This document shows, piece by piece, positions 16,295 through 59,783 of a DNA stretch of 64,000 nucleotides. The position numbers and the translations under genes are program-made. Each line of letters opens with the position of its first letter. Within the stretch, counting starts at the first letter, position 1. A model generated the notes under the pieces. The model worked only from the letters and a program-made list of their open reading frames with translations. It searched no databases and was not told the DNA's origin. The stretch is from positions 2,542,001 through 2,606,000 of the forward strand of contig NZ_CP088252.1 in assembly GCF_021117385.1 (NCBI RefSeq), in the 5' to 3' direction. Source of the DNA: Frateuria soli (GTDB lineage: Bacteria; Pseudomonadota; Gammaproteobacteria; Xanthomonadales; Rhodanobacteraceae).

Positions 16295-16312
16295 ATTTGG
16301 ATCGTTCCAAAT
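16295..16312. promoter_or_regulatory. LacI-type operator in front of GH92
   Basis: ATTTGGATCGTTCCAAAT: 7-bp perfect arms around TCGT, with the central CG expected for LacI-family sites. It sits immediately upstream of the ribosome-binding site of the leftward GH92 gene, where a bound repressor would block transcription. The same core occurs at 16386-16401. Confidence 0.85.
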
Positions 16313-16385
16313 TCCTACGCTAGCAGCGTGCCGCCGGTCGCGCATGTTGCGCTGCGTGAAGCCGGTTCGCTCAGGATCGGCTAGA

Positions 16386-16401
16386 TTTGGATCGTTCCAA
16401 A
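16386..16401. promoter_or_regulatory. LacI-type operator in front of the LacI regulator gene
   Basis: TTTGGATCGTTCCAAA, identical over 16 bases to the site at 16296-16311 and 23 bases before the regulator start. This suggests autoregulation and joint control with the downstream permease-kinase-isomerase genes. Confidence 0.85.
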
Positions 16402-16424
16402 CCGTCTTTTCCACCGGGTGCCCA

Positions 16425-17474
16425 ATGGAAAGCAACACCCCGCTCGGCCGCAAGGTCACCGTGCGCGACATCGCCGCGGCCTGCGGCGTATCGCGCGCCA
16501 CCGTGTCGCTGGTGCTGCGCGACAGCCCGCTGGTCAACAAGGACACCCGCGCCCGCGTCGAGGAGGAGCTGCGCCGCCAGGGCTACGTCTACAACCGCGC
16601 CGCCGCCAACCTGCGCCGGCGCACCTCCTCGTCGATCGCCCTGGTGATCAACGAACTGGCCAACCCCTTCTTCGCCGAGTTCGCCGCCGGCGTGGACGAC
16701 GTGGTCGGCGAGGCCGGCATGGTCACGCTGCTGGGCTCCTCCAGCGAATCGCCCAGGCGCGAGCAGGCGGTGCTCGGCTCGCTGATCGAGCACGGACCCG
16801 GCGGCATCATCCTCTCGCCCGCCGAGGGCAGCGACGCCAGCCAGGTGCTGGCCGCGGTCGGCGCGCGCACGCCGCTGCTGGTGTTCAACCGCGAGCTCAG
16901 CGGCGAGCAGCCGGAGTACGCGCACTGGGACTCGCTCGCGCTGGACAACCAGCAGGGCGCGCGCGAAGCGACCGCGCACCTGATCGCGCAGGGCCACCGG
17001 CGCATCGCCTTTTTCGGCGGCCATGGGGATTCCTCGTCCTGCCGGCAACGCCGCGCAGGCTATCGCGAAGCGATGAAGGCCGCCGGGCTGCAGGTCGCAC
17101 CGCACTGGGAAGTCGAGTGCCTGCCCACCCGCCTGGATGCGGCCCGCTGCGCCGAAGCGCTGTTCGAGGCCGATCCGGCGCCCACCGCGGCGGTCTGCTA
17201 CAACGACGCGGTGGCGCTGGGCCTGATGCATGGCCTGGCCGAGCGCGGGCTGGTGCCGGGTCGCGACTTCGCCCTCACCGGCTTCGACGACATCGCCGAA
17301 GCCGCGCTTGCCACCCCGTCGCTCACGACGCTCGCTGCGGCGCCGCGCGCGCGCGGTCGCCAGGCCGCGCAGATGCTGCTGGAGCGGCTGCGCGACCCGG
17401 AGGCCGAAACAAGGCGCATCGTCGCTCCGGTCAAGCTGGTCATCCGCGCCAGCAGTTGCCCGCCCATCGCCTGA
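16425..17474 (+). CDS. LacI family transcriptional regulator of the mannoside regulon
   Basis: 349 residues from the ATG at 16425. The frame is open upstream to 16344, but that would run through the operator. The helix-turn-helix is at the N-terminus (VTVRDIAAACGVSRATVSLV, then LRDSPLVNKDTRARV), followed by the periplasmic-binding-protein-like effector domain (SIALVINELANPFFAEFAAG through ALTGFDDIAEAALATPSLTT). It lies between the divergent GH92 gene and, 20 bases downstream, the sugar permease. Adjacent operators make it the likely repressor of this locus. Mannose or a manno-oligosaccharide is the most plausible inducer (inferred from the neighbours). Confidence 0.92.
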   Translation: MESNTPLGRKVTVRDIAAACGVSRATVSLVLRDSPLVNKDTRARVEEELRRQGYVYNRAAANLRRRTSSSIALVINELANPFFAEFAAGVDDVVGEAGMVTLLGSSSESPRREQAVLGSLIEHGPGGIILSPAEGSDASQVLAAVGARTPLLVFNRELSGEQPEYAHWDSLALDNQQGAREATAHLIAQGHRRIAFFGGHGDSSSCRQRRAGYREAMKAAGLQVAPHWEVECLPTRLDAARCAEALFEADPAPTAAVCYNDAVALGLMHGLAERGLVPGRDFALTGFDDIAEAALATPSLTTLAAAPRARGRQAAQMLLERLRDPEAETRRIVAPVKLVIRASSCPPIA

Positions 17475-17494
17475 CCGGACCGAAGGAGTCCTCC

Positions 17495-18817
17495 ATGGCC
17501 ATCATGCAAGCCCCCAACCGGTCGCCCGCCACCCCTGCCGACGGATCGCGCGAGCGCTATACCACCTACCCGGCAGCACTCGCGGTGGTCACCACGATCT
17601 TCTTCATGTGGGGCTTCCTCACCTGCCTCAACGACATCCTGATTCCGCACCTGAAGGCGCTGTTCGAGCTGAACTACAAGCAGGCGATGCTGGTGCAGTT
17701 CACCTTCTTCGGCGCGTATTTCCTGATGTCGCTACCGGCCGGGCGGCTGGTCGCGCACCTGGGCTACAAGCTCGGCATCGTCGCGGGCCTGGCGATCGCC
17801 GGTCTCGGCGCCGCGGGCTTCTGGCCGGCGGCGGGGCTGCATTCCTATTCGGCCTTCCTGCTGGCGCTGTTCGTGCTGGCCACCGGCATCACCGTGCTGC
17901 AGGTGGCCGCCAATCCGTACGTGGCACTGCTCGGACCCGCGCGCACCAGCTCCAGCCGGCTCACGCTGGCGCAGGCGCTCAACTCCTTCGGCACGTTCCT
18001 CGCGCCGCACTTCGGCGGTCTGCTGATCCTTGCCGTCGCCGTGAAGAGCTCGCTCGAAGTCGCGCAGCTCTCGCCTGCCGAGCAGATGGTCTACCGCGCG
18101 CAGGAAGCACAGGCCGTCCAGGGTCCCTATCTGGGCCTGGCCATCGCACTGTTCGTGCTGGCCGTGCTGGTGTACCTGTTCCGCCTGCCCGCGCTGGAGG
18201 AGGCCACCGAACAGGCCGACCGCGGCCACCACACGCTGCTCGACGCACTGCGCATCCCGCACGTGCTCTTCGGCGTGATCGCGATCTTCTGCTACGTCGG
18301 CGCCGAGGTGGCGATCGGCAGCTTCATGGTCAACTACCTGTCGCTGCCGCAGATCGGCAACATGCCCGAGACCACTGCCGCGACCTATGTGTCGTACTAC
18401 TGGCTGGGCGCGATGATCGGCCGCTTCGCCGGCTCCTGGCTGATGACGCGCTATTCGCCGCGCGCGCTGCTCGCGCTGTTCGCGCTCGTCAACATCGTGC
18501 TGCTGGCGGTGACGATCAGCACCAGCGGCATGACCGCGGCATGGAGCATCGTGGCGATCGGCCTGTTCAACTCGATCATGTTCCCCACCATCTTCACGCT
18601 GGGCATCGAGCGGCTGGGGCCGCTGACCGAAAAGGCGTCGAGCCTGCTGATCATGGCCATCGTGGGCGGCGCGGTGATTCCCTTTGCGCAGGGCGCGCTG
18701 GCTGACGCGATCGGCGTGCAGGCCGCCTTCGCCCTGCCGGCCCTGTGCTACGCCTACATCGTGTTCTACGGCCTGCGTGGCTCGCGCGTCGTCGGCACGA
18801 CGCTGGAGGATCGATGA
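17495..18817 (+). CDS. MFS sugar permease, FucP/NagP/GluP family (probable mannose transporter)
   Basis: Inner-membrane sugar:proton symporter. 440 residues with about 12 hydrophobic segments. Family marks are FFMWGFLTCLNDILIPHLK at the start of helix 1, FGAYFLMSLPAGRL and LFVLATGITVLQVAANPYV. Start ATG at 17495 has GAAGGAGTC upstream. It lies 20 bases after the LacI gene, and its stop codon overlaps the next start (ATGA), so it is translationally coupled to the kinase. With an isomerase and fructokinase downstream it most likely imports mannose; fructose or fucose are alternatives. Confidence 0.92.
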   Translation: MAIMQAPNRSPATPADGSRERYTTYPAALAVVTTIFFMWGFLTCLNDILIPHLKALFELNYKQAMLVQFTFFGAYFLMSLPAGRLVAHLGYKLGIVAGLAIAGLGAAGFWPAAGLHSYSAFLLALFVLATGITVLQVAANPYVALLGPARTSSSRLTLAQALNSFGTFLAPHFGGLLILAVAVKSSLEVAQLSPAEQMVYRAQEAQAVQGPYLGLAIALFVLAVLVYLFRLPALEEATEQADRGHHTLLDALRIPHVLFGVIAIFCYVGAEVAIGSFMVNYLSLPQIGNMPETTAATYVSYYWLGAMIGRFAGSWLMTRYSPRALLALFALVNIVLLAVTISTSGMTAAWSIVAIGLFNSIMFPTIFTLGIERLGPLTEKASSLLIMAIVGGAVIPFAQGALADAIGVQAAFALPALCYAYIVFYGLRGSRVVGTTLEDR

Positions 18818-19782
18818 ATCGCCCGATCCTCTGTTTCGGCGAGGCGCTGATCGATTTCCACGCCGAGGGCGCCGGCGCGAACGGGTTCCCACGGGCGTTC
18901 GTGCCCTTCGCCGGTGGCGCGCCGGCCAACGTGGCGGTAGCGGTGGCGCGCCTGGGCGGTGCGGCCCGCTTCGCCGGGATGCTCGCGCACGATCCGTTCG
19001 GCGACTTCCTGCTCGACAGCCTCCGGCGCGCCGGCGTGGGCGTGGCCGACGTGGCGCGCACCGACGAAGCCAACACCGCGCTGGCGTTCGTCAGCCTGGA
19101 TGCCCGTGGCGAGCGCAGCTTCAATTTCTACCGGCCGCCCTCGGCGGATCTGCTGTTCCGTCCGCAGCATTTCCGCCCGGAAACGTTCGAAGGCGTCGCG
19201 GTCTTCCATGTCTGCTCCAACAGCATGACCGACCCGGACCTGGCCGAAACCACCCGCGAAGGCATGCGCCGCGCGCAGGCCGCCGGCGCGCTGGTGAGCT
19301 TCGACCTCAACCTGCGCCCGGCGCTGTGGCCGCGCGGCTCGAACCCGCGGCCGCTGGTGTGGCCAGCACTGCACCTGGCGGACGTGGTCAAGCTGTGTGC
19401 CGAGGAATTCGCCTGGCTGGCCGAGGACGGCGCACTGCTCAACCGCCTGTGGCGCGGGCGCACGCGGCTGCTGGTGGTCACCGACGGTCCGCGGCCGCTG
19501 CGCTGGTTCCGCCGCGATGCGAGCGGCGAACTGCCCTGCCCGCAGGTCGAGGCGGTCGACACCACCGCCGCGGGCGACGCCTTCGTCGGCGGCCTGCTGT
19601 GCAGGCTCGCGGCGCTGGAGAATGCCGAGGCCTTCGACGCCCTGCTGCACGACGAGGCGGGCCTGCACGGCCTCCTCGCCTTCGCCGCCGCCTGCGGCGC
19701 CCTCACCGTCACCCGCCAGGGCTCGTTCACCGCGATGCCGAGCGCGGCGGAAGTCGACGCCTTCCTGGAATCGAACCGATGA
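18814..19782 (+). CDS. PfkB family sugar kinase (probable fructokinase)
   Basis: ATP-dependent kinase of the ribokinase fold, predicted to make fructose-6-phosphate. 322 residues. N-terminal substrate segment FGEALIDFHAEG and GGAPANVAVAVARLGG. C-terminal PfkB signature DTTAAGDAFVGGLL with the catalytic Asp. Starts inside the permease stop codon (ATGA) and ends in the same arrangement with the isomerase gene, so three proteins are made from one coupled message. Fructose as substrate is inferred from the mannose-isomerase-like neighbour; a mannokinase cannot be excluded. Confidence 0.9.
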   Translation: MNRPILCFGEALIDFHAEGAGANGFPRAFVPFAGGAPANVAVAVARLGGAARFAGMLAHDPFGDFLLDSLRRAGVGVADVARTDEANTALAFVSLDARGERSFNFYRPPSADLLFRPQHFRPETFEGVAVFHVCSNSMTDPDLAETTREGMRRAQAAGALVSFDLNLRPALWPRGSNPRPLVWPALHLADVVKLCAEEFAWLAEDGALLNRLWRGRTRLLVVTDGPRPLRWFRRDASGELPCPQVEAVDTTAAGDAFVGGLLCRLAALENAEAFDALLHDEAGLHGLLAFAAACGALTVTRQGSFTAMPSAAEVDAFLESNR

Positions 19783-20990: not shown

Positions 20991-21004
20991 CCAGGGGACT
21001 TTCG

Positions 21005-26409: not shown

Positions 26410-26412
26410 CGC

Positions 26413-29906: not shown

Positions 29907-30176
29907 GGAAGCTCCTTTGGGTATGGCTGCAATGACGACGAAATGGGCGACCCGAAATCGACGCACAACGACAAAGTTTGTAGCCGGCCTCGGCCAGCCT
30001 GTCGCATGGGACTGCGGGGGAAGCTCCTGCGAATCGCCTCGCTCGGCCGGTGATGGGCCGCCTCGTTGATCCGATCGCTGCGCGCCTGGCACCGCTCGGG
30101 ACGAAGCCCGACGCCTGACCTGCCCGATTACTGCAATGCGGCATGCATTGCCTCGACGGGCGATGCTACCTTGCTA

Positions 30177-30192
30177 TATAGATCGATCTAAA
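30177..30192. promoter_or_regulatory. LacI-type operator in front of the CutC-GH2-GH125-GH92 operon
   Basis: TATAGATCGATCTAAA: the core AGATCGATCT is a perfect dyad and only one outer base breaks the symmetry. It differs from the perfect site at 59767-59782 at one position and shares 12 of 16 bases with the 16296 site. It overlaps a TATATA stretch that could be the -10 box, about 95 bases before the CutC start. Confidence 0.8.
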
Positions 30193-30287
30193 CGGCAGGC
30201 AATCGTGGGTCAACCGCACCCGTCCCGAAGCGCATCCGCTTGCGCCACGCGCGTTGCGACCATCGTCGTTCGCGGGGCGGTGACCTG

Positions 30288-31055
30288 ATGCCCGCACCCT
30301 CCGTCGGCCTGCTCGAAGTCGCCGCCAACTCGGTCGCCTCCGCGCTGGCCGCACAAGAGGGTGGCGCCGGGCGGGTCGAGCTGTGCGCGGCGCTGCAGTT
30401 GGGCGGCGTGACGCCTTCCTACGCCGAGATCGCCACCGCGCGCGATCGGCTTACGATTCCGCTCTATGTGCTGATCCGGCCGCGCGCAGGCGATTTCCTC
30501 TACAACGACTTCGAGTGCGAGGTGATGCTTCGCGACGTCGAGGCCTGCGTGGCGCTGGGATGTGATGGGGTGGTCCTTGGCGTGCTGGATGCCGAGGGCC
30601 GCGTCGACCAGGCGCGTTGCCGGGCGCTGGTCGGTGCGGCCGGTCGACTGGGCGTCACCTTCCACCGCGCGTTCGACATGGTCGCCGACCCGGCGCAGGC
30701 ATTGGAGGCGGTGATCGGGCTGGGCTGCGAGCGCGTGCTCAGCTCGGGGGCGCGGGCGACTGCGATCGATGGCGCGGCGGCGCTGCGTGCCCGGTTGGAA
30801 CAGGCGGCCGGCCGGCTGGTGGTGATGCCCGGTGCGGGCGTCCATGCCGGCAACATCGCGGCGCTGGCCCAGGCGACCGGCGCAAGCGAATTCCATGCTT
30901 CGGCGAAGCGAGCGTTGCCTTCGGGCATGCGCCACCGGCCAGCGGGGCTGGACGACATGGCCACCGGCGAGTGGCGCAGCGACGCGGCGCAGGTGCGCGC
31001 GATGGTGTCGGCGCTGCAGGGCCTGGCCGCTCGTGAAACTCCGGTTTCATCCTAG
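30288..31055 (+). CDS. cutC: CutC family TIM-barrel protein
   Basis: 255 residues from ATG 30288. CutC features: LLEVAANSVASALAAQEGGA, GRVELCAALQLGGVTPSY, VLIRPRAGDFLYND, HRAFDMVADPAQALEA and the final ASEFHASAK. Long described as a copper-homeostasis protein, but the evidence for copper is thin and the TIM-barrel active-site cleft suggests an enzyme. Here it is the first gene of a mannosidase operon, 12 bases before the GH2 gene, and has the mannoside operator in front, which favours a role in sugar processing (inference). Cytosolic. Confidence 0.9.
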   Translation: MPAPSVGLLEVAANSVASALAAQEGGAGRVELCAALQLGGVTPSYAEIATARDRLTIPLYVLIRPRAGDFLYNDFECEVMLRDVEACVALGCDGVVLGVLDAEGRVDQARCRALVGAAGRLGVTFHRAFDMVADPAQALEAVIGLGCERVLSSGARATAIDGAAALRARLEQAAGRLVVMPGAGVHAGNIAALAQATGASEFHASAKRALPSGMRHRPAGLDDMATGEWRSDAAQVRAMVSALQGLAARETPVSS

Positions 31056-31067: not shown

Positions 31068-33734
31068 GTGACGATCCCGGCCTTGCCCACCAGAACGCGC
31101 TCGATGCCACGACTGGCCAGGCTCGCCGGTGCACTGGCGCTGTTGACGGGTCCATCCCTGGCCGCACCGGCCACGCAGCTTCTCGACCAGGGGTGGCAGG
31201 TCCGCCTTGCGCCCGACGATGCCCACCTGGCGAAGCACCCGCGCGCGGCCCGATGGCTCCCCGCGGCGGTGCCCGGCGCGGTGCAGACCGACCTGATGGC
31301 GGCCGGCCTGGTGGACGACCCTTTCGTGGGCCGGAACGAGGCGGCGATCCAGTGGGTGGGCCTGTCCGACTGGGTGTATCGCACGCGCTTCGAGGTCGAT
31401 GGGGCCACGCTCGCGCGCCGGCATGTGGAGCTGGTGTTCGACGGGCTGGACACCTTTGCCGAGGTCTACCTCAACGGGCACAGGCTCTTCAGCGCGGACA
31501 ACATGTTCCGCCGCTGGTCGGCACCCGCGAAACCCCGGCTGCATGCCGGTGCCAACACGCTGGAAGTGCGCCTGTACTCGCCCGTCAAGCGCCTGCAGCC
31601 GTGGCTCGAGCGGCAGCCGTACGCGTTGCCGGGCGAGTTCGACTCGGCCTTCGGCGACGAGCCCAAGGGCCGGCAGACAGCCAACTACGTGCGCAAGGCC
31701 GCCTACCAGTACGGCTGGGACTGGGGGCCGCGCATCGTCACCGAGGGCATCTGGCAGCCGGTGCACCTGGACAGCTGGGACGGCCCGCGCGTGGTCGCTT
31801 TCCATGTCGCGCAGAAGCAGCTCGATGCGCGGGCCGCACAGCTGGACGTGCAGCTGGAGGTCGACGCGGACAGCGATGCCTCGCTGCCCGCGCAGATCAG
31901 CGTGTACGGGCCGGATGGCCAGCCGGTCGCGCACCAGGTCGTGGATGTCGAAGTGGTTGCGGGCCACCGTCGCCTCGGCGTGCCGGTAACGATCGACCAT
32001 CCGAAGCGGTGGTACCCGGCCGGATACGGCGCGCAGGACATGTACACGGTCCGGGTGCAGGTGGGCGAGGGCAGCAAGCCCATTTACGAGGGCTCGCGCC
32101 AGATCGGCCTGCGCACGGTCGAGCTCCGCCGCGACAAGGACCGCTGGGGCCGCAGCTTCGCGTTCGTCGTCAACGGCATCCCGATCTTCGCCAAGGGCGC
32201 CAACCTGATCCCGTTCGACAGTTTCCCTGCTCGCGTCGACGAGGCGCGGATGCGCCAAACGCTCGAGTCCGCGCGCGCAGCCAACATGAACATGCTGCGC
32301 GTATGGGGCGGCGGCTACTACCTGCCGGACGCCTTCTACGCGATGGCCGATCGCATGGGCTTGATGGTGTGGCAGGACTTCATGTTCGGCGGCGCGATCC
32401 CGCCGCACGACGCGGCCTTCGTCGCGAACGTGCGGCAGGAGGCGGCCGAGCAGGTCGCGCGCCTGTCGGACCATCCTTCGATCGTGCTCTGGTGCGGCAA
32501 CAACGAGGTGCAGAGCAGCTGGTTGTCGTGGGGCGATCGCAAGGCGCTGCAGGCCTCGCTCGCACCCGCGGAAAACGAACGCATCAAGCAGGGCATGCGC
32601 GACCTGTTCGGCGAGGTGCTGCGCGACGTGGTTGCGCAGCACGACCCGGACGTGCCGTACTGGCCGAGCTCCCCCAGCCAGGGCGGCGACGGTTTCGCCA
32701 ACGGTCTGGACGATGGCGACTACCACTACTGGGAGGTCTGGTCGGGCGAGGCCCGGCCGGCGACCGCCTACCTGGACGTGACCCCGCGCTTCCAGTCCGA
32801 ATACGGCCTGCAGTCGTTCCCCGTCCTGCGCACGATCCGCGCCTTCGCCGGCACGGAACCGTTGCAGGCAGAGTCGCCGGTGCTGCGCGCGCACCAGAAG
32901 TTCGACGGCGGCAACGGCAACCGCCGCCTGCTCGACTACGTGCGGCGTGGTTACGGCGAACCGAAGGATTTTCCCGCGCTGGTCTACCTGAGCCAGGTGA
33001 TGCAGGCCGACGGCATCGCGCTGGCGGCCGAGCACCTGCGCGCCTCGCGGCCGCGGTCCATGGGTTCGCTGTACTGGCAGCTCAACGACCTGTGGCCGGG
33101 CGTGACCTGGTCCAGCATCGACAGCTACGGACGCTGGAAGGCGTTGCAGTTCCGCGCCCGTCGCTTCTACGCGCCGCTGCTGATGGCGGCCTTGCGGCAT
33201 GAGGGTACGACCACGGTATCGCTGGTCTCCGACCGTACCACCCCGATCGCCGCGCGCTGGCGGCTGCGGCTGATGGACTTCGCCGGCAAGGTGCGGCGCG
33301 AGGAGGCCCACGACGTGACGCTGGCGCCGCTGGCCAGCACGCGGGTTGCCCGCTATACCGATACGCAACTGCTCGATGGCGCCGATCCGCGCGCCACTTT
33401 CGCGGTCTTCGAGCTTCTCGCCGGTGGCAAGCTTCTCTCGCGTGACCTCGTGTTCTTCGCCCGGCCCAGGGACCTGCCCCTTCCGCAGCCCCGCATCCAC
33501 GCGCAACTCGCTCCCGCGGCCACGGGGTACAGCCTGACACTCGCCACCGATGCGCTCGCGCGCGACGTATGGGTGTCCTTCGGCGACCTCGATGCCCGCC
33601 TGTCGGACAATGGCTTCGACCTGTTGCCGGGTGAGCCCGTCACGCTGGATGTCGCCAGCGAAGCCTCCGCCGGAGCGCTCCGGCAAGCCCTGCAGGTGCA
33701 GGACCTTGCCCATGCCATGGGAACCCCGCCATGA
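31068..33734 (+). CDS. GH2 family beta-mannosidase, exported
   Basis: Exo-beta-mannosidase predicted to cleave the Man-beta-1,4-GlcNAc core linkage of N-glycans or beta-manno-oligosaccharides. 888 residues from GTG 31068; ATG 31104 (MPRLARLAGALALLTGPSLA) is an alternative that begins directly at the signal peptide. Domain order is that of GH2 mannosidases: jelly-roll sugar-binding domain (WVYRTRFEVDG, FDGLDTFAEVYLNG), Ig-like domain, TIM barrel with acid/base Glu in WCGNNEVQ (near 480) and nucleophile Glu in QSEYGLQSFP (near 578), then C-terminal beta domains. Neither start has a clear ribosome-binding site. Stop overlaps the GH125 start (ATGA). Confidence 0.93.
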   Translation: MTIPALPTRTRSMPRLARLAGALALLTGPSLAAPATQLLDQGWQVRLAPDDAHLAKHPRAARWLPAAVPGAVQTDLMAAGLVDDPFVGRNEAAIQWVGLSDWVYRTRFEVDGATLARRHVELVFDGLDTFAEVYLNGHRLFSADNMFRRWSAPAKPRLHAGANTLEVRLYSPVKRLQPWLERQPYALPGEFDSAFGDEPKGRQTANYVRKAAYQYGWDWGPRIVTEGIWQPVHLDSWDGPRVVAFHVAQKQLDARAAQLDVQLEVDADSDASLPAQISVYGPDGQPVAHQVVDVEVVAGHRRLGVPVTIDHPKRWYPAGYGAQDMYTVRVQVGEGSKPIYEGSRQIGLRTVELRRDKDRWGRSFAFVVNGIPIFAKGANLIPFDSFPARVDEARMRQTLESARAANMNMLRVWGGGYYLPDAFYAMADRMGLMVWQDFMFGGAIPPHDAAFVANVRQEAAEQVARLSDHPSIVLWCGNNEVQSSWLSWGDRKALQASLAPAENERIKQGMRDLFGEVLRDVVAQHDPDVPYWPSSPSQGGDGFANGLDDGDYHYWEVWSGEARPATAYLDVTPRFQSEYGLQSFPVLRTIRAFAGTEPLQAESPVLRAHQKFDGGNGNRRLLDYVRRGYGEPKDFPALVYLSQVMQADGIALAAEHLRASRPRSMGSLYWQLNDLWPGVTWSSIDSYGRWKALQFRARRFYAPLLMAALRHEGTTTVSLVSDRTTPIAARWRLRLMDFAGKVRREEAHDVTLAPLASTRVARYTDTQLLDGADPRATFAVFELLAGGKLLSRDLVFFARPRDLPLPQPRIHAQLAPAATGYSLTLATDALARDVWVSFGDLDARLSDNGFDLLPGEPVTLDVASEASAGALRQALQVQDLAHAMGTPP

Positions 33735-35161
33735 CCACCCGCCGCGACTTCCTCAGACTGCTCGGCACCACCGCGGCCGCCGGCGCCTTCGGCAACTTCG
33801 CCCGGGCTGGCACCGGTACCGGCTACGCCAGCAAGCGCCCGCCGCCGGGCAAGCGCCGCTTCACCAGCGCGGCGGTGGAACGCGAGCTGGCGCGCGTGCA
33901 GGCCCGCATCGGCGATCCCAAGCTGGCCTGGATGTTCGGCAACTGCTATCCGAACACGCTCGACACCACGGTCGAGCTGGGCACGCTCGAGGGCAAGCCG
34001 GACACCTTCGTGATCACCGGCGACATCGAGGCGATGTGGCTGCGCGACTCCTCCGCGCAGGTGGCGCCCTACCTGCCGCTGGCGAAGCAGGACCGTGCGC
34101 TGCAGCGGCTGTTCCACGGCCTGATCCGCCGCCAGGCGCGCTGCATCCGCATCGATCCGTACGCCAACGCCTTCCTGCCCGATCCGCACGCCCAGCCGCT
34201 GTCATGGGCACGCCAGGACCAGACCGACATGAAGCCGGGCGTCGGCGAACGCAAATGGGAAATCGATTCGCTCTGCTGGCCGATCCGCCTGGCGCACGGC
34301 TACTGGCAGGCGACCGGCGACGTCGCGCCGTTCGACGATGACTGGCGCGCGGCCATGCTCCTGGTCGTGAACACCTTCCGCGAGCAGCAGCGCAAGCACG
34401 ACCGCGGCCCGTACCACTTCCAGCGCACCACCGACCGGCCCACCGAAACGCTGGCGCTGGAGGGCTACGGCCACCCGTCGCGGCCCAACGGCATGATCCA
34501 TTCGATGTTCCGGCCGTCGGACGATGCGTGCGTGTACCCGCTGTTCGTGCCGGCCAACCTGTTCGCCGTGGTCTCGCTGCGACAGCTCGCGGCGATGAGC
34601 CGCGCCCTCCACCACGACGCCGGCTTTGCCGACGACTGCACCGCGCTGGCCGACGAGGTGGCGCTGGCCACCCGTCGCGACGGCCGGCTGCAGGAAGCCG
34701 ACGGCGACTACTGGGCCTACGAGATCGACGGCTACGGCAACCGCCTGTTCATGGACGACGCCAACGCGCCGGGCCTGCTCAGCCTGCCCTACCTGGGTTG
34801 CTGCGCGGCGGACGACCCGCTCTACCGGCGCACCCGCGAGCGCGCCTGGAGCGGGCACAATCCGTATTTCTTCCGCGGTACCGCGGCCGAAGGCATCGGC
34901 GGCCCGCACGAGGGCCTGCGCATGATCTGGCCGATGGCGATCACCATGCGCGCGCTGACCAGCCGCGATCCGGCCGAGATCCGCCAGTGCCTTCGCTGGC
35001 TGCGCGACACCGACGCGGGCACCGGCTTCATGCACGAGGCGTTCGACCAGGACGACCCGGCGCACTTCACCCGCGCGTGGTTCGCCTGGGCCAACAGCCT
35101 GTTCGGCGAACTGATCGTCAAGCTCGCCGATACGCAGCCGGCGCTGCTGCGTGCCCCATGA
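33731..35161 (+). CDS. GH125 family exo-alpha-1,6-mannosidase with Tat signal
   Basis: 476 residues. Twin-arginine export signal (TTRRDFLRLLGTTAAAGAFG). The family's (alpha/alpha)6 barrel segments are visible: WMFGNCYPNTLDTTVE, FVITGDIEAMWLRDSSAQV, KWEIDSLCWPIRLAHGYW, HPSRPNGMIHSMFRPSDDA, GTGFMHEAFDQDDPAHFTR and WANSLFGELI. GH125 enzymes are metal-independent inverting alpha-1,6-mannosidases of N-glycan and mannan breakdown; in the Xanthomonas nix cluster the GH125 enzyme removes the alpha-1,6-mannose after GH92 action. Translationally coupled to the GH2 gene; 73 bases before the second GH92 gene. Confidence 0.95.
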   Translation: MTTRRDFLRLLGTTAAAGAFGNFARAGTGTGYASKRPPPGKRRFTSAAVERELARVQARIGDPKLAWMFGNCYPNTLDTTVELGTLEGKPDTFVITGDIEAMWLRDSSAQVAPYLPLAKQDRALQRLFHGLIRRQARCIRIDPYANAFLPDPHAQPLSWARQDQTDMKPGVGERKWEIDSLCWPIRLAHGYWQATGDVAPFDDDWRAAMLLVVNTFREQQRKHDRGPYHFQRTTDRPTETLALEGYGHPSRPNGMIHSMFRPSDDACVYPLFVPANLFAVVSLRQLAAMSRALHHDAGFADDCTALADEVALATRRDGRLQEADGDYWAYEIDGYGNRLFMDDANAPGLLSLPYLGCCAADDPLYRRTRERAWSGHNPYFFRGTAAEGIGGPHEGLRMIWPMAITMRALTSRDPAEIRQCLRWLRDTDAGTGFMHEAFDQDDPAHFTRAWFAWANSLFGELIVKLADTQPALLRAP

Positions 35162-35234
35162 ACATGCCCACGGACCTTCCACCCCCTGGGCCGGCATCCC
35201 TCTTGCCGCCCACCGACCCACAGGAGAACTCGAC

Positions 35235-37670
35235 ATGGTGACCCGCAGACGCTTCCTGCAAGGCATGGGCGCCCTGACCGCACTGGGCGGCGCCGGCACG
35301 TTGCCGGGCTTTGCGATGAGCCGCCCGGGCGCCGGGCGCCCGTCGATGGGCACCGGCGAGGGCGTCTCCCGTTTCGTCGACGTGTTCGTCGGCACCGGCG
35401 GGCACGGCCACACCTTCCCCGGCGCCACCCTGCCCTACGGCATGGTGCAGTTGAGTCCCGACACCAACGACGCCGGCTGGGACGCCTGCTCGGGCTACCA
35501 CCAGCGCGACGGGTCGATCATGGGCTTCTCGCACACGCACCTGTCCGGCACCGGCGCCAGCGACATGCTGGACCTGCTGGTGATGCCGGCGCAGGGGCCG
35601 GTGCTGCTGCAACCGGGCGAACGCGGACTGCCGGACAAGAACTACCAGTCGCGCTACGACGAGGCGGCGTTCGCAAGCACGCGGCTGCCGCCCGATGCGG
35701 TCGGCCACCCCGGCCACGGCTACCGCTCGCGCTACGACGGCGAGCAGGCGCAGCCGGGCTACTACCGCGTGCACCTGACCGACCACGACATCCTGGCCGA
35801 GCTGACCGCCACACTGCGTGCCGGACTGCACCGCTACACCTTCCACGGCCCGGGCGACGGCCACCTCCTCATCGACCTGGCACATGGCTTCCACGACGAT
35901 CCCGATGTGCCGGCCAAGGTCAGCGACGCCACGCTGAAGCTCATTGGCGAGGACCTGCTGGTCGGCAGCCGCCGCGTGCACCAGTGGGCCAACGGGCGCT
36001 ACATCCATTTCGCGATGAAGCTGTCGCGGCCGCTCGCCCGCGCCACGCTGTACGTCGAGGACGCGCCGCTGCCGACCGGCTCGCGCGAAGCGCATGGCAA
36101 GCACCTGAAGGCCGCGCTGCATTTCGGCGACGTGGCGCGCGAGCCGCTGCTGGTGAAGGTCGGCATCTCGGCGGTCGACATCGACGGCGCGCGGCGCAAC
36201 CTCGAATCGGAAGTCCCCGGCTGGGATTTCGAGGGCACGCGGCAACGGGCGGCCGATGCGTGGGAGCGGGAGCTTTCGCGCATCCGCATCGACAGCCCAT
36301 CCGAGCCGGTCAAGCGCACCTTCTACAGCGCGCTCTATCACACCATGCTCGCGCCCACGCTGTTCAGCGACGCGGACGGCCGCTACCGCGGCATGGACCT
36401 GAAGGTGCACACGCTGCCCGAGGGCCAGCACAACTACAGCACCTACTCGCTGTGGGACACCTACCGCGCGCTGCATCCGCTGCTCACGCTGTTCCAGAGC
36501 GAGCGCGTGCCGGACCTGGTCAACGGGCTGGTGCGCATGACCGCCGAAAGCCCGGACGGCCCGCCCGTGTGGCCGCTGCAGGGCGTGGAAACCGGAACCA
36601 TGATCGGCTACCACTCAATCGTGGTGATCGCCGAGGCGCACGCCAAGGGCTTTACCGGCATCGACTACGCCGGGGCGTGGCCGCTGTTCCGCAAGCGCGC
36701 GATGGACGACGACTACCGCGGCCTGACCTACTACCGCAAGCTGGGCTACATCCCGGCCGACAAGGATTGGGAGTCGGTCAGCAAGACACTCGAATACTGC
36801 TACGACGACTGGGCGATGGCGCACCTGGCCGACGCCGTCGGTGCGCACGAGGACGCGAAGCACCTGCGCGAGCGCTCGCGCAACTACCGCAACGTGTTCG
36901 ACCGGAAGCGCACCTTCGTGCGTCCGCGCGGCAGCGATGGCGAGTGGCTGCAACCCTTCGACCCGCGTGCGATGGGCCACGGGGCCAAGTGGCGCGACTT
37001 CACCGAATCCAACGCCTGGGAAGCCACCTTCCTCAACCAGCACGACCTGTACGCCTACATGCCGCTGTTCGGCGGCGAGCAGGCGTTCGAGCGCAAGCTC
37101 GACGAGCTTTTCGAGACCAGCTCCGCACTGCCGGCTGATGCGCCGCCGGACATCGCCGGCATGGTCGGCCAGTACGCGCACGGCAACGAGCCGAGCCACC
37201 ATGTGGCCTACCTCTATGCCTACACCGGCGCGCACCACAAGACGCAGGCGCGCGTGCGCATGCTGCTGGAGAAGATGTACCGGCCCGAGCCGGACGGCCT
37301 GGCCGGCAACGAGGACTGCGGGCAGACCAGTGCCTGGTACGTGCTGGGGGCGCTGGGGTTGTATGCGGTCGATCCGGTCAGCGCCAACTACGTGTTCGGC
37401 AGTCCGATGCTCGACCGGGCCCAGCTGATGCTGACCGGCGACAAGCGGCTGGTGGTGCAGGCGCGGGGGAACGGGCCGGACAAGCCGTACATCCAGTCGG
37501 TGCGCTGGAACGGCAAGCCCTGGACGAAGAGCTGGATCAGCCATGCGGAGCTGGCCGCCGGTGGAACGCTGGAGTTCGAGATGGGCGCGACGCCCAATCT
37601 GAAGTTCGGTGCCGCGCCGGCGGATCGGCCACCGTCGTTCGGGCAGCCGGCGCCGGCGGTCGAGGGCTAG
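35235..37670 (+). CDS. GH92 family alpha-mannosidase with Tat signal (mannoside locus 2)
   Basis: 811 residues from ATG 35235, which follows AGGAGAACTCGAC. Tat-type signal VTRRRFLQGMGALTALGGAG. Upstream in-frame codons to 35151 overlap GH125 and are not used. GH92 hallmarks: GTGGHGHTFPGATLPYGMVQ, GFSHTHLSGTGASDMLDLL, HGNEPSHHVAYLYAYTGA and GNEDCGQTSAWYVLGALGLY. It diverges from the GH92 at 14017 in many positions (for example EDCGQT in place of DDLGQM), so the two probably cleave different linkages. Last gene of the CutC-GH2-GH125-GH92 operon. Confidence 0.95.
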   Translation: MVTRRRFLQGMGALTALGGAGTLPGFAMSRPGAGRPSMGTGEGVSRFVDVFVGTGGHGHTFPGATLPYGMVQLSPDTNDAGWDACSGYHQRDGSIMGFSHTHLSGTGASDMLDLLVMPAQGPVLLQPGERGLPDKNYQSRYDEAAFASTRLPPDAVGHPGHGYRSRYDGEQAQPGYYRVHLTDHDILAELTATLRAGLHRYTFHGPGDGHLLIDLAHGFHDDPDVPAKVSDATLKLIGEDLLVGSRRVHQWANGRYIHFAMKLSRPLARATLYVEDAPLPTGSREAHGKHLKAALHFGDVAREPLLVKVGISAVDIDGARRNLESEVPGWDFEGTRQRAADAWERELSRIRIDSPSEPVKRTFYSALYHTMLAPTLFSDADGRYRGMDLKVHTLPEGQHNYSTYSLWDTYRALHPLLTLFQSERVPDLVNGLVRMTAESPDGPPVWPLQGVETGTMIGYHSIVVIAEAHAKGFTGIDYAGAWPLFRKRAMDDDYRGLTYYRKLGYIPADKDWESVSKTLEYCYDDWAMAHLADAVGAHEDAKHLRERSRNYRNVFDRKRTFVRPRGSDGEWLQPFDPRAMGHGAKWRDFTESNAWEATFLNQHDLYAYMPLFGGEQAFERKLDELFETSSALPADAPPDIAGMVGQYAHGNEPSHHVAYLYAYTGAHHKTQARVRMLLEKMYRPEPDGLAGNEDCGQTSAWYVLGALGLYAVDPVSANYVFGSPMLDRAQLMLTGDKRLVVQARGNGPDKPYIQSVRWNGKPWTKSWISHAELAAGGTLEFEMGATPNLKFGAAPADRPPSFGQPAPAVEG

Positions 37671-54869: not shown

Positions 54870-56386
54870 TCACTCCAGGGCTGCCTTGCAATGTTCGTCG
54901 ATGTAATCCTGGTGCGACGGCATGGCCTCGGCGCACGAGGCGATCGTCCGGCGCGTGCGCTCGACGAAGGCGACCAGGTCGGCCTCGGGCACTTCGTCGA
55001 CGATGGGATGGTAGCCGCGCGGCACGACGCGCTGGCCGAGCATCACCTGCACCCAGCTCGGCAACGCGAAGAAGTCCTCGCCGTTGCGGAAATAGCGGCC
55101 GTCGGCCCGGAACAAGTCGATCGTGTCGCGCAGCGGCTCGGGGATGGCCATCGTGCGGCAGTGATCCCAGAACGGCGTGTCGTCGCGCTCGGTCGCGTGA
55201 TAGTGCAGCGCCAGGAAGTCGCGCACGCGTTCGTGCTCGAAGGCGGACTCGCGGTTGAAGCGGTCGGCCAGCATCGGGTCGAACTCGCGCGTCGGAAACA
55301 GCCCGAGCAGGCGCTGGATGGCCGATTGCGCCAGGTAGATGGCGGTCGATTCGAGCGGTTCCATGAAGCCACCGGCCAGGCCCACCGCAACGACGTTCCT
55401 GTCCCAGAACTTCTTGCGCCTGCCGGGAGTGAAACGCAGCGGGCGCGGCTCGCCCAGCGCCTCGCCATCCAGCGTAGCGAGCAGGGTCGCGGCGGCCTCG
55501 TCATCGCTGAGGTGGCGGCTGGAGTACACGTAGCCATTGCCGGTGGGCTGCTGCAGCGGGATGCGCCACTGCCAGCCCGCCGCCCGCGCGGTCACGCGCG
55601 TGTACGGGGTCAGCGCCCCGGCACTCGCGCAGGCCACGACCATCGCGCGGTCGCAGGGCAGCCATCGGCTCCAGTCTTCGTAACCGGCCTTCAGGGTCTT
55701 TTCGATCAGCAGACCGCGGAAGCCCGAGCAATCGATGAACAGTTCGCCCTCGATGCGCTCGCCGCCCTGGAGCACCACGGCGTCGACGAAGCCGTCGTCC
55801 CCGCGCTGGACGACGTCGACGATCCGCCCCTCGACCCGTTGCACGCCCCGGCGCTCCGCCAGCTCGCGCAGGTACCGCGCATACAGCCCGGCATCGAACT
55901 GTAGCCGTAGGCGACGTCGGCCAGCGGCGAACCCGGCGGCGCATCGGCCATGCCGGCGGTGAACCGGTCCAGTGTTGCCGCGACCGTGGGCAGCGAAAAA
56001 GCCCCGATCCCGGGCGCGCGCCCGGCGAGGAACAGCTTCAGCCAGTACTGGTGGAACGGCAGCGGCCCCAGCGACCGGCCGATCGTGCCGAAGCCGTGCA
56101 CGTAACTGTCGCCGATGCGCCCCCAGTCGTTGAACTGGATGCCGAGCTTGAAGGTGCCTTGCGTCCGCGCGACGAAATCCGCCTCGCGGATGCCCAGCAC
56201 CTGGGCGTTGAAGGTCTTCATGTACGGGACGGTGGATTCGCCCACGCCGACGATGCCGATCTCTTCCGATTCCACCAGCCGGATGCGGGCGCCCTTGCCC
56301 AGGTAGGTGGCCAGCGCCACCGCGGCGGTCCAGCCGGCACTGCCGCCGCCCACGACGACGATGTTGCGGATGCGGTTGTCGTCCAA
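54870..56386 (-). pseudogene. Tryptophan-halogenase-like flavoprotein gene, broken by a frameshift
   Basis: Flavin-dependent halogenase family protein of about 505 residues, split over two frames. The first part (TTG 56386; GTG 56413 possible) has the FAD site IVVVGGGSAGWTAAVAL and EIGIVGVGESTVPYM. The second part (QFDAGLYARYLRELAERRGV to the end at 54870) has the family WxWxIP motif (GWQWRIPLQ) and VGLAGGFMEPLESTAIYLAQ. The frames meet at DVAYGY|QFDAG. Reading leftward, GGCTACAGTTC would need one extra C (GGCTACCAGTTC) near 55901 to be continuous. Either a sequencing error or a real mutation. Such genes accompany TonB receptors in Xanthomonadales sugar loci; it lies 110 bases after the receptor gene. 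Confidence 0.85.
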
Positions 56387-56419
56387 TGCGAGTACCCGGA
56401 GTGAGATGCACACAAGAAA

Positions 56420-56453
56420 GCGGCAGTGCCCGGGGAGTACAGGCCACTGCCGC
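56420..56453 (-). terminator. Hairpin between TonB receptor and halogenase genes (attenuator-like)
   Basis: Read leftward: GCGGCAGTG, a 16-base loop and CACTGCCGC, followed by TTTCTTGTG. A 9-bp stem with a short T-rich tail could reduce transcription into the halogenase gene or protect the receptor mRNA. Confidence 0.5.
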
Positions 56454-56495
56454 TGGAAGGTTCCCCGTGCCTCGCGGTACGGGGGCAAGGCCTTC

Positions 56496-59400
56496 CTAGA
56501 ACTTGTACGTCAGGCCCATGTAAACAATGCGACCGGCGTAGCCGTTGGAGTAGAAGCGGGCCTTGGTGTCGTTGCCCAGGTGCGAGCGCGACTCCTCCTT
56601 GGTCAGGTTCAGCACCGACGCGGTCACGCTGAACGCCTTGGTGATGTTGTAGGCCGCGTTCAGGTCGATCTGCTGGTAGGGCTCCCGGTAGACGTTCAGG
56701 CCGTTGACCAGGCCGTCCACCACCTCGCCGCGCCGGTTGTACGAGGCGCGCGCGAGGAACCGCTCGGTCTCGTAGAACACGGTGAAATTGGCCTGGTTCT
56801 TCGCGCTGCCGACCAGCGGCGACTTGCCGATCTCGGTGCCGTCCTCGAGCGTGATCGCCGCCTCGTTGGTCTTGTTGTAGGTGTAGTTCGCCTGGAAGCC
56901 GAGGCCGAAATCGAGCGTGTGCTGGGCGTACAGCTCGACGCCCTCGGAGACGCCGTCGCGGCCGCCTGCGGTGGTGGAGTAGTTCTGCACCGTCACGCTC
57001 TGGCCGCCGACGTCCATCGACACGTCCTGCACCACCGGCACCGAGAAGTTGCTGACGTCCTTGCGGAACACGCCCATGCCCAGCACCGAGCCGGGATGGA
57101 AATACCACTCCAGGCCGATGTCGTACTGGGTGGCCTTGTACGGCTCAAGGTTCTTGTTGCTGCCCGCGCCGTACCAGCCCACCTCGTCGCCGCCGCCGAT
57201 CAGGCGACGGTCGTTGACGTATTCCTGGCTGTAGTACTGCAGGCCGCCGGGGGCGGCGATGTCGTTGTAGCTCGGACGCGAGATCACCTTGGAGGCGGCG
57301 CCGCGCAACACCAGGTCGTCGGTCAGGTCGTAGGCGACGTTGAAGCTCGGCAGCACGTCGGTGTAGGTGCGGTCGAGCGAGCTGACCACGAACGAGGAGA
57401 CATGCCCGGTGGCCGGGTTGGTCTGGCTGTCCGGCAGCGTGGTGAAGCCGCTGACGCAGCCGGAGCCCGCGGGCGCGCCGGCCGCCGGCAGGTTGCCGGT
57501 CTGGCAGGGCGCCGGGTTGCCGTCGGGGCCGTCGAAGAAATAGTCGTTGTAGTAATCGACCTGGTCGGTCGAATCGGCGTGTTGCCGGGTACGCGCCAGG
57601 CGCACGCCGACGTTGCCGCGCAGGCGCTCGGTCTTGAAGTTGAGTTGCACGTACCCCGAGTAGATCTTCTCGCCGACGTTGTAGATGAAGTTGTCCTCGT
57701 TGCGGGTGTGCATCCCCCCGTAGGTCTGGTTGAGGTAGGCGACGTAGGCCGGGTAGTTGATCGCCGGGAAGGAACTGGCGTTGATGCCGCCGGCGAGGTT
57801 GCCGAGCGGCTGGCCGTACAGGAACTGCGGCTGGAACACCGAGGCGTTGGGATCGCAGCCGTTCTGGAAGCGGTTGTCGTAATCGGCCGGATCGGCGCCC
57901 TGGCAGACCCAGTAGTTGTTGCCGGTGCTGCGGTGGGTGCCGCCGTTGCGGTACTTCGCGCCGAACTGCAGCGAATCGAACCAGTCGCCGTAGACGTGCC
58001 AGGTGAAGTCGGCCTGGGCGTATTTCTGTTTGGTCTCGTTGCGGGTCCATGAGGAGCCGGTCGAGCCGAGGTCGACTTCGCCGATGCCGTTCCGGAGGTT
58101 CGCCATCAACTCGGGCGAGAACATCATCGTCGGCGTGCCGGCCAGGCTCCAGGCGCTCATGTAGTTGCCCAGGTCGTAGTCGCCGCTCGCGTTCTGGCGG
58201 CGCGGCTTGATCGGCACCGAGATCTGCAACTCGGGGCCGCCGCTGGCCCAGGTGCGGCCGGCCTTGACGCTGGCATCTAACGATTCGCCGACCCACTCGG
58301 CGCCGATGTCCGCGGTCTGCGACAACGCGCTTTCGTGGTTGTAGCTGCCGGTGATCTGCGGAGTGGGGATGCTGCAATCGTCCGGGCCGAAGCCGCCGGT
58401 ATTGGTCAGCCCGCCCGCGGCGGCCTCGTCACCGCTGCAGTAGTACGCCTTGCCCGGATGCACCGAATAGGTGGCGCCGGTGACGATGGTTCCGCTGGGA
58501 TCGAAGGTCAGCCCGTCGAGCATGCGGCCGCCGGGCCAGTTGCCGTCGCCGGCATAGCGGGCCAGGTTCCACTCCGGGACCTTCAGCGTGTTGGTCTGGG
58601 AATCCTGCGACAGGTCGAAGCGGAAATAGTTGGCCGTCAGCGTCAGGTTGTCGACCGGGCGGAACTGCAGGGTCACCTGACCGCCCTTGCGCTCGCGGTT
58701 CTCGTTGGTGACGTTGAGGTTCACCGAGGTCGGCATCATGAAGTTGCAGTAATAGCCGCACTCGGTGGGCCAGCCATCCTGGAAGCCGCCGGTGTAGGGG
58801 TGGTTCTGGTCGTTGAAACCCGATTCGCCCCACCAGTAGGAGGTCATGCCCGAGGGCTTGCCGTTGACGTCGGTCGCCGGGTGGGCGTCGTAGTCGTCGC
58901 CGTACCACTGCCAGTTCTCGGTGCTCGCACCCATGGTGCGCGTGGTGCGCTTCTGGCTGGTGTAGCCGACCAGGAAGCCGAAGCGCTCGTCCTTGTCGTG
59001 CCAGGAGTACAGGCCGGAGAACTGTCCGTCCGTCTTCTTGGTGGTGTCGGCCCAGGTGCCTTCGGCGGAAACGAAGCCGGTGTTCGCCTCCATGTCCAGC
59101 GGGCGGCGCGTGTGCAGGATCACGGTGCCGCCGATGCCGCCTTCGTCGATGCGCGCTTCGGGCGTCTTGAACAGCTCGGCGCTGGACAGCATGTTCGACG
59201 GCAGCAGCGTGTAGTTGAACGAACGGGTCGGGTCGCCGTTGGATTCGGCGGTGGCGATGTAGTTGCCGTTCAATTCGGTCAGCGTGAGCTCGGACGACAG
59301 GCCGCGGACGCTGACGTTCTTGCCCTCGCCGCCATCGCGCGAAATGATCACGCCCGGCACGCGCTGCAGCGCGTCGGCCACGTTCTTGTCGGGGAACTTG

Positions 59401-59663
59401 CTGACGTCTTCGGCGGTGATGACCTCGACGATCGCGTTGGCTTCGCGCTTCTGGTCCAGGCTCTTCTCGATCGAGTAGCGGTAGCCGGTGACCTGGACCT
59501 TCGAGAGGGATACGGCATTGTCCGGCTGTGCCGGGCTGCCGGTGTCGGCCTGGTTCTGCTGCTGGGACTGGTTCTGCTGGTCCTGCGCCTGCGCGTTGCC
59601 GCAATAGAGCGCTGCCAGGACCGCCGCGGCCAACAACGTGACCGGCACGAATGGGCTTTTCAT
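56496..59663 (-). CDS. TonB-dependent outer-membrane receptor (probable manno-oligosaccharide uptake)
   Basis: 1055 residues with signal peptide (MKSPFVPVTLLAAAVLAALY, then CGNAQAQ), a Gln/Asn-rich N-terminal stretch (QDQQNQSQQQNQAD), the plug domain (VQVTGYRYSIEKSLDQKREA; FPDKNVADALQRVPGVIISR; GGIGGTVILHTRRPLD) and a long barrel that ends in aromatic MGLTYKF, as expected for BamA-dependent insertion. The plug type (TonB-dep-Xanth-Caul) is that of large sugar receptors of Xanthomonas and Caulobacter. Two LacI-type operators upstream match the mannosidase operators, so it probably imports mannose-containing oligosaccharides or glycopeptides. Followed by the halogenase-like gene. Confidence 0.94.
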   Translation of the reverse strand: MKSPFVPVTLLAAAVLAALYCGNAQAQDQQNQSQQQNQADTGSPAQPDNAVSLSKVQVTGYRYSIEKSLDQKREANAIVEVITAEDVSKFPDKNVADALQRVPGVIISRDGGEGKNVSVRGLSSELTLTELNGNYIATAESNGDPTRSFNYTLLPSNMLSSAELFKTPEARIDEGGIGGTVILHTRRPLDMEANTGFVSAEGTWADTTKKTDGQFSGLYSWHDKDERFGFLVGYTSQKRTTRTMGASTENWQWYGDDYDAHPATDVNGKPSGMTSYWWGESGFNDQNHPYTGGFQDGWPTECGYYCNFMMPTSVNLNVTNENRERKGGQVTLQFRPVDNLTLTANYFRFDLSQDSQTNTLKVPEWNLARYAGDGNWPGGRMLDGLTFDPSGTIVTGATYSVHPGKAYYCSGDEAAAGGLTNTGGFGPDDCSIPTPQITGSYNHESALSQTADIGAEWVGESLDASVKAGRTWASGGPELQISVPIKPRRQNASGDYDLGNYMSAWSLAGTPTMMFSPELMANLRNGIGEVDLGSTGSSWTRNETKQKYAQADFTWHVYGDWFDSLQFGAKYRNGGTHRSTGNNYWVCQGADPADYDNRFQNGCDPNASVFQPQFLYGQPLGNLAGGINASSFPAINYPAYVAYLNQTYGGMHTRNEDNFIYNVGEKIYSGYVQLNFKTERLRGNVGVRLARTRQHADSTDQVDYYNDYFFDGPDGNPAPCQTGNLPAAGAPAGSGCVSGFTTLPDSQTNPATGHVSSFVVSSLDRTYTDVLPSFNVAYDLTDDLVLRGAASKVISRPSYNDIAAPGGLQYYSQEYVNDRRLIGGGDEVGWYGAGSNKNLEPYKATQYDIGLEWYFHPGSVLGMGVFRKDVSNFSVPVVQDVSMDVGGQSVTVQNYSTTAGGRDGVSEGVELYAQHTLDFGLGFQANYTYNKTNEAAITLEDGTEIGKSPLVGSAKNQANFTVFYETERFLARASYNRRGEVVDGLVNGLNVYREPYQQIDLNAAYNITKAFSVTASVLNLTKEESRSHLGNDTKARFYSNGYAGRIVYMGLTYKF

Positions 59664-59680
59664 GGTTCCCCTCCCGAGAG

Positions 59681-59700
59681 AATTTGGATCGTTACAAATT
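59681..59700. promoter_or_regulatory. LacI-type operator proximal to the TonB receptor gene
   Basis: AATTTGGATCGTTACAAATT, 17 bases before the receptor start codon. Over the 16-base core it differs from the GH92/LacI operators at one base (A for C). Confidence 0.85.
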
Positions 59701-59765
59701 CAGAGCAAACCGCTTCCCATGCGCTCGATCCGGACCCGCCTGCGAGAGCCACCATCGGCTCGGCG

Positions 59766-59783
59766 GTTTAGATCGATCTAAAC
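59766..59783. promoter_or_regulatory. Second, perfect LacI-type operator upstream of the TonB receptor gene
   Basis: GTTTAGATCGATCTAAAC, an 18-bp perfect palindrome centred on CG, 85 bases upstream of the proximal site (centre to centre, about eight helical turns). It matches the site in front of the CutC operon except at one base of its 16-base core. The 59664-60077 gap otherwise contains no gene that I can support. Confidence 0.85.

Follow-up and report, generated by a model that had tools for sequence, protein, structure and literature searches.

Five related operators predict a LacI-controlled mannoside regulon spread over three loci in Frateuria soli

The 64,000-nucleotide stretch of the Frateuria soli genome analyzed here (contig NZ_CP088252.1, positions 2,542,001 to 2,606,000; hereinafter the window) contains five related palindromes with the consensus TTTrGATCGwTCyAAA, located upstream of a GH92 alpha-mannosidase gene, the divergent gene of a LacI-family regulator, a gene cluster that starts with CutC and encodes GH2, GH125 and GH92 family enzymes, and the gene of a TonB-dependent receptor. 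Comparative sequence analysis indicates, with a probability of roughly 85%, that all five are operators of one LacI-family protein, encoded at position 16425, which appears to be ManR-like by function (the name is used by analogy). An earlier note on this DNA had proposed that the five sites link three loci into one mannoside regulon; the scan of the complete genome, the linkage of the sites to orthologs of the regulator and the presence of mannoside-related genes all lend support to this prediction. The direct observations behind it are the positions and rarity of the sites, their conservation, their co-occurrence with the ortholog and the gene content of the loci.

The sites at 16296-16311 (GH92 side) and 16386-16401 (lacI side, predicted to be autoregulatory) are the same 16-mer, TTTGGATCGTTCCAAA, and the receptor-proximal site at 59683-59698, TTTGGATCGTTACAAA, is a single base off it. 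The receptor-distal site at 59767-59782 is TTTAGATCGATCTAAA, from which the site before CutC at 30177-30192, TATAGATCGATCTAAA, is one base away. A scan of the window confirms the coordinates and letters that the earlier note gave for the five operators as well as the agreement of the two subtypes at 13 of 16 positions. With up to 3 mismatches to the consensus allowed, the window yields 10 strand matches, that is, these five places on both strands, compared to a mean of 0.30 and a maximum of 4 in 100 dinucleotide shuffles of the same DNA. In the genome (one contig of 3,488,520 bases), only the five window places are found at up to 2 mismatches, and scatter of the consensus at a similar frequency is not seen. 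Raising the limit to 3 mismatches yields 12 matches on the forward and 13 on the reverse strand (backwards control: 3 and 2) and adds 11 places with exactly 3 mismatches. When scored with a matrix of 136 sites from upstream of lacI genes, to which this window contributed two, the five sites reach 24-31 bits and the 11 three-mismatch places 2-14 bits.

All five sites are even palindromes within the range of 16-22 bp with a central CG, which is the typical form of LacI-family sites according to Ravcheev et al. 2014 (PMC4052901). The GTTC-type sites contain one mismatched pair, and the 59683 site contains two. The site centers lie 103 bp upstream of CutC, 27 and 111 bp upstream of the receptor gene, 31 and 121 bp upstream of lacI and, as estimated by eye, about 22 bp upstream of GH92; two of the centers are a little nearer to the gene than the usual range. 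When the three control regions were scanned for sigma-70 promoters at a threshold of 9 of 12 matches, none was found, so that promoter positions were judged by eye; by this approach, the first six bases of the 30177 operator, TATAGA, resemble a possible -10 hexamer.

The predicted repressor (349 aa, 16425..17474, forward strand) is a LacI-family protein, with a PF00356 helix-turn-helix (HTH) domain (42.1 bits, cut-off 27) followed by periplasmic-binding-protein-like (Peripla_BP) domains (PF13377, 126 bits), and it matches solved LacI-family chains across nearly the full length; no NCBIfam model exceeds its cut-off for this protein. Its recognition helix, SRATVSLVLR, is the same in all 31 orthologs printed. 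Named homologs come from Frateuria, Dyella, Rhodanobacter, Luteibacter and Fulvimonas, the closest among the matches listed being that of Frateuria flava (97%). The genome contains four matches to the LacI HTH domain, and only the 16425 gene adjoins mannosidase genes. The LacI gene of locus L021 is flanked by genes for an MFS transporter, a SIS protein and an amidohydrolase, which we read as an N-acetylglucosamine-type set; that of L022 has an alpha-amylase and a sugar transporter as neighbors; and the neighbors of the L019 gene (within L023) show no match when compared with the window proteins, the sole comparison made for them. Within 2 mismatches, no site occurs in the 16-kb regions around these three genes, whose recognition helices (SLKTVSRVIN, SQATVSRALR and SRKTVSRVLN) are unlike that of the window protein. 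The L019 gene itself is disrupted (L019:1416-1611, genome position C1:2071650): the HTH is kept and is followed by a hexamer repeat of 13 copies coding for Pro-His and then by other sequence that, by eye, resembles the end of a TonB receptor read in a different frame, as though a deletion had joined two genes.

Within the genus, LacI and the adjoining sites are present in all six genomes, the window genome included. Four of the other five encode a LacI ortholog with 91-97% identity, and in G004 the ortholog is represented by two contig pieces (92% and 87%). The distance between the GH92 and lacI operators in the six genomes is 90, 90, 90, 153, 306 and 347 bp, and the operators themselves are unchanged apart from one y position in G005; the GH92-side operator is invariant at 16/16 positions in three of the genomes. 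The CutC operator is invariant at 15 of 16 positions across the six genomes, compared to 33% of the positions in the aligned upstream region.

In a family sample of 117 genomes from 26 genera, 76 encode a LacI ortholog (E-value of at most 1e-60), and all 76 contain sites at up to 2 mismatches (mean 6.3, median 5; two or more in 72 genomes). The 41 genomes that lack the ortholog contain a mean of 0.9 and a median of 0 sites, with two or more in seven, among them G010 with 12. At up to 3 mismatches, at least one operator precedes lacI in 72 of the 76 genomes and two or more do so in 63; for 80 named lacI loci, which come partly from the same genomes, the respective counts are 79 and 72.

The target genes were examined in a cross test: the 500 bases preceding each gene were scanned with a matrix of 59 sites taken from 31 lacI loci. 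All 30 receptor loci examined (43-100% identity; 30 of 40 matches) exceed the 1% shuffle threshold, compared to 11 of 900 shuffles, and the weakest site scores 17.0 against a threshold of 7.0. In G033 and G048, lacI and the receptor ortholog are unlinked, lying on different contigs or at a distance of 1.6 Mb, and the site before the receptor is retained; furthermore, all 39 genomes with a close receptor homolog also have the LacI ortholog. Elsewhere in the relatives, sites precede TonB and GH92 genes (L138, L143, L150), TonB and GH20 genes (L142), a GH76 gene (L151) and a GH92-GH92 pair (L160); the GH92 genes of L150 and L160 were named by BLAST comparison to the window proteins, and the other genes by Pfam or, for some receptors, by BLAST. 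The predicted regulon has the gene content of the ManR type, namely genes for mannoside uptake and hydrolysis, with exceptions in relatives.

These exceptions, together with several other observations, weigh against a single mannoside-specific regulator. The species compared are related by descent, so they do not count as independent samples and the Mann-Whitney value for genomes with versus without the ortholog cannot be taken as a true probability. In four g8 genomes, the ortholog is present with no site before lacI. For CutC, sites were detected at only 6 of the 30 loci examined (of 76 matches), all six within the genus (11 of 900 shuffles), and none of the 24 CutC loci examined outside the genus has a site within 500 bp; this result serves as a negative control and shows the CutC operator to be a feature of this genus only, and CutC was accordingly rejected as a family-wide target. 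In the relatives that are richer in sites, many two-mismatch places fall elsewhere. Of the nine such places in G005, eight were examined: five precede mannoside-type genes or lacI, and three do not, two being at an ORF for a proteasome-like (HslV-type) protein and one inside an alpha-amylase ORF. Similarly, 14 of the 17 places in G053 were examined, and four precede mannoside-type genes whereas ten do not clearly do so; six of these form two triplets before ORFs, and four are near GGDEF, barrel, glucokinase/aldo-keto and ABC genes. For G025, the count is six before mannoside-type genes and two not, among eight of 13 places examined. In such relatives, the two-mismatch pattern therefore also gathers chance sites or sites of other proteins. 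G010 presents the most pronounced discrepancy: it contains 12 site-like sequences despite a broken LacI, no mannosidase like those of the window turned up in nine of the 12 regions examined, and three of the sites precede a PQQ dehydrogenase, a gluconate-dehydrogenase/GMC pair and an MFS/FGGY-kinase pair. Either another protein reads these sites or the lacI deletion is recent; the family may thus include a further protein that recognizes a similar motif. Finally, the type of the site core (ATCGTT or ATCGAT) tracks the location of the site, although not strictly.

Two of these genomes have further unusual features. In G053, three site-like palindromes are located exactly 91 bp apart before each of two neighboring ORFs (L143:16181-16378 and L144:2439-2636), the products of which (825 and 751 aa) have no Pfam match at 1e-8. 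The G010 copy of LacI (L119, C1:3130967) lacks query residues 65-262 and the remainder is out of frame, with the HTH intact and the same; the permease and kinase genes next to it are still present.

The earlier note allowed for either one LacI protein or two paralogous regulators, and of these, a single protein reading all five sites is favored for two reasons: at orthologous positions one subtype can stand in place of the other, and the remaining LacI genes of the genome either sit in other loci or are broken. At the same place before the receptor gene, the r position differs between G000 (TTTGGATCGTTACAAA) and G002 (TTTAGATCGTTACAAA), the G000 form being found in three genus genomes; at the orthologous place before CutC, TATAGATCGATCTAAA contrasts with TATAGATCGATCCAAA; and generally, the r and y positions change freely at orthologous sites. 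The w position swaps as well, given the ATC cores before lacI in G017, G078, G061, G039 and G052. A split between two regulators, in which the local LacI would read TTTrGATCGTTCyAAA at GH92 and lacI while the CutC and receptor sites, of the symmetric form TTTrGATCGATCyAAA, would be read by another protein, was weighed seriously and then down-weighted. It would agree with the predominance of the ATCGTT core before lacI (110 of the 136 listed sites, with ATCGAT in five), with the presence of an ATCGAT site at each of the 30 receptor loci and with the ATCGAT-type sites of G010, which has no full LacI ortholog. Such a split is hard to reconcile, however, with the five genomes that have ATC cores before lacI, with the window receptor gene, which bears one site of either type, and with the invariable presence of the LacI ortholog alongside the close receptor homolog; the genomic context of the other LacI genes also speaks against a second reader, as far as the LacI family is concerned. 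On balance, a division of the sites between two proteins appears improbable.

Still less likely is that the sites are maintained for another reason, as promoter or structural elements, with LacI binding elsewhere. The overlap of the 30177 site with the possible -10 hexamer, recognized by eye, is compatible with such a role. The shape of the sites is, however, that described for the LacI family in PMC4052901, both operators are retained within the genus while the length of the intervening DNA ranges from 90 to 347 bp, and the occurrence of the sites follows the LacI ortholog. As for a chance similarity of palindromes, it is already refuted by the excess over shuffles in the window, by the genome scan, in which no other place comes within 2 mismatches, and by the conservation of the sites in relatives. 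Control of all five sites by the LacI protein encoded at 16425 remains the preferred explanation.

The arrangement of the paired operators between GH92 and lacI is itself conserved. Among 63 spacings, 34 genomes have 88-93 bp and 26 have 98-106 bp, none fall at 94-97 bp, and the values 153, 306 and 347 bp occur once each. With 20 genus-level values, a Monte Carlo test for helical phasing gives p-values of 0.012 (all periods) and 0.009 (the gap), with the caveats that the split at 96 bp was chosen after the data had been seen and that shared descent was not removed. PMC4052901 gives spacing peaks for LacI-family operator pairs at 13, 22 and 32 bp, so that a pair held far apart over many genera seems less usual.

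Between the paired operators lies an 18-bp conserved element, approximately GCATGYTGCRSTGCGYGA (16342..16359, forward strand), the best match to which covers 12-18 of the 18 positions in 63 two-operator regions from 18 genera. The element is located 29-35 bp from the GH92-side operator in 63/63 regions; the gap to the lacI-side operator measures 24-29 bp in 34 regions, 32-38 bp in 26 and is long in three, so that the difference between the two spacing classes originates on the lacI side. At least 14 of 18 positions match in 58 of the 63 regions, compared to 146 of 6300 dinucleotide shuffles, the consensus having been drawn by eye from the same 63 regions. In the remaining five (G061, G109, G017, G078 and G068), the placement is the same and the match is only 12-13 of 18, a level common in shuffles; because these five are indistinguishable from shuffles by score, the presence of the element in all 63 regions was not upheld.

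A second copy, GCATGCCGCATTGCAGTA (30129..30146, reverse strand), lies 30 bp before the 30177 operator and is found in all six genus genomes. A matrix derived from the lacI/GH92 regions only scores it at 15.3 bits, the second-best value in the window, the third being 15.0 bits at an unrelated place. A weak and tentative third copy (59821..59838, forward strand), with a score of 4.6, is not convincing alone, and a related block is present 38-39 bp before the operator in six receptor orthologs, including that of the window. Altogether, 9 of the 30 receptor loci are above the 95% point of shuffles, and the element was not found before most of the receptors of the 44% group, before GH76 or before the GH92-GH92 pair. 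With 2 mismatches allowed, a relaxed pattern of the element shows no specificity across the genome (76 and 56 matches in the genome compared to 63 and 63 for the backwards control; two in the window, the 30129 match included, compared to 2.95 in shuffles), and the element was rejected as a global regulator site.

Given that paired operators with two preferred spacings flank a conserved element, cooperative or looped repression, or an interplay with a second DNA-binding protein, is plausible at the GH92/lacI pair. More specifically, and tentatively, the core promoters could be composite, with the 18-bp element read by a second DNA-binding protein, possibly a dedicated activator, with which the LacI dimer pair would compete or over which it would loop, in an architecture kept across 18 genera; the fixed distance to the GH92 operator and the two distance classes relative to the lacI operator, about one helical turn apart, would fit such an arrangement. 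The O1 and O3 operators of the E. coli lac operon are about 92 bp apart, a spacing similar to that of the paired operators here, and the lac repressor carries its tetramerization tail at the C-terminus. The window LacI, in contrast, appears to lack this tail, judging from the alignment length: the aligned part spans residues 10-347 of its 349 and covers residues 3-332 of a 360-residue lac repressor chain, so that two residues follow. A loop of the lac type is therefore unlikely here without a dimer-dimer contact; looping by dimers is known, e.g., for GalR.

The gene assignments of the earlier note hold in Pfam and NCBIfam searches, with the starts of GH92 and CutC refined. The divergent GH92 alpha-mannosidase gene (14017..16281, reverse strand) matches PF07971 (2.7e-177) and PF17678 and exceeds the cut-off of TIGR01180; by eye, its start is likelier to be the ATG at 16281, which is preceded by an SD-like GGAG, than that at 16296, so that the first operator ends 14 bp upstream of the gene. 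The lacI gene is followed after 20 bp by the gene of a sugar transporter of the major facilitator superfamily, FucP/GluP type (17495..18817, forward strand; TIGR01272, 329 bits, and TIGR00885, 281 bits, both over the cut-off), and then by that of a fructokinase-like PfkB sugar kinase (18745..19782, forward strand; PF00294, 2.3e-50), the ORF start of which is uncertain and the top NCBIfam match of which, fructokinase, is under the cut-off of that model. The second locus, on the forward strand, consists of the CutC-family gene (30288..31055; PF03932, 2.2e-69; by eye, the ATG at 30288 is a likelier start than the TTG at 30240), a GH2 beta-mannosidase-type gene (31068..33734; Glyco_hydro_2_N2, Ig_mannosidase and Mannosidase_ig domains), a GH125 alpha-mannosidase gene (33731..35161; PF06824, 1.1e-162) and a second GH92 alpha-mannosidase gene (35151..37670; PF07971, 9.6e-169). 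A Pfam search of the genome finds two GH92 genes, both within the predicted regulon. The receptor gene (56496..59663, reverse strand) is of the TonB-Xanth-Caul type (TIGR01782, 767 bits, over the cut-off) and is followed by a gene for a tryptophan-halogenase-like protein. The latter (54870-56488) is split into two frames, with the change near 55900, and forms a single frame in the G001, G002 and G048 loci; the frame change could be either a real mutation or an assembly error. The operon boundaries and the enzymatic activities are predicted here from general knowledge of the respective families.

The closest parallels are the ManR-type LacI regulons for mannose and mannosides (Ravcheev et al. 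2014, PMC4052901). The Shewanella study (PMC2996990) describes manR-I and manR-II, and its table for mannosides lists manR, manP, omp(Man), manI and manK. The likeness consists in a LacI-family regulator, an even palindrome with a central CG and a local sugar regulon; the inclusion of GH92, GH125, GH2 and CutC and the spacing of the paired operators are described here from the present lineage. In Bacteroides thetaiotaomicron, the same job is done by an unrelated protein, ManR (BT2103), which belongs to the GntR family (PMC3878776). In the Xanthomonas nix N-glycan cluster, as presented in PMC5700972 and PMC6718126, the TonB receptor, beta-mannosidase, alpha-mannosidase and cutC genes are located in one region, whereas here the same kinds of genes occupy three places within 43 kb and are connected through the operators that they share; unlike the nix cluster, no fucosidase or ENGase is found among the annotated window proteins. 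Among the matches listed in the literature search, there is no publication on mannoside regulation in Frateuria, Dyella or Rhodanobacter or on an order-wide ManR.

The placement of a gene annotated as "copper homeostasis" protein CutC (30288-31055) at the head of a mannosidase operon has a counterpart in the nix region, which also includes cutC according to PMC6718126. Furthermore, in two g8 genomes, G012 and G062, lacI is located within 3 kb of CutC, and in a third, G035, the distance is under 6 kb, with a GH92-like gene immediately preceding lacI, a proximity that links both functions independently. Taken together, these contexts suggest a glycan-related role for CutC.

Binding by LacI, its effector, repression and induction by mannose or a mannoside can be predicted from what is known of the family. 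In the absence of a mannoside, the LacI dimer would sit on operators close to the transcription start points and repress four units, namely GH92, lacI-MFS-PfkB, CutC-GH2-GH125-GH92 and the TonB receptor. The inducer, mannose or a small mannoside produced by the exo-mannosidases, would bind the periplasmic-binding-protein-like domain and free LacI from DNA. The receptor would then import the glycan, the GH92, GH2 and GH125 enzymes would trim it, the FucP-type permease would take up mannose, and the PfkB kinase would phosphorylate mannose or its isomer.

The predicted regulon is well supported and represents a familiar kind of control circuit, next to which there is one additional conserved promoter element. 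Three separate groups of genes become a single testable pathway for the scavenging of mannose-rich glycans in Rhodanobacteraceae, and a working operator motif is supplied for related genera. The predicted mannoside control of the "copper" protein CutC in this genus hints that its annotation is misleading, and the paired operators with the intervening element offer a simple system in which to ask whether a tail-less LacI uses helix-phased operators.

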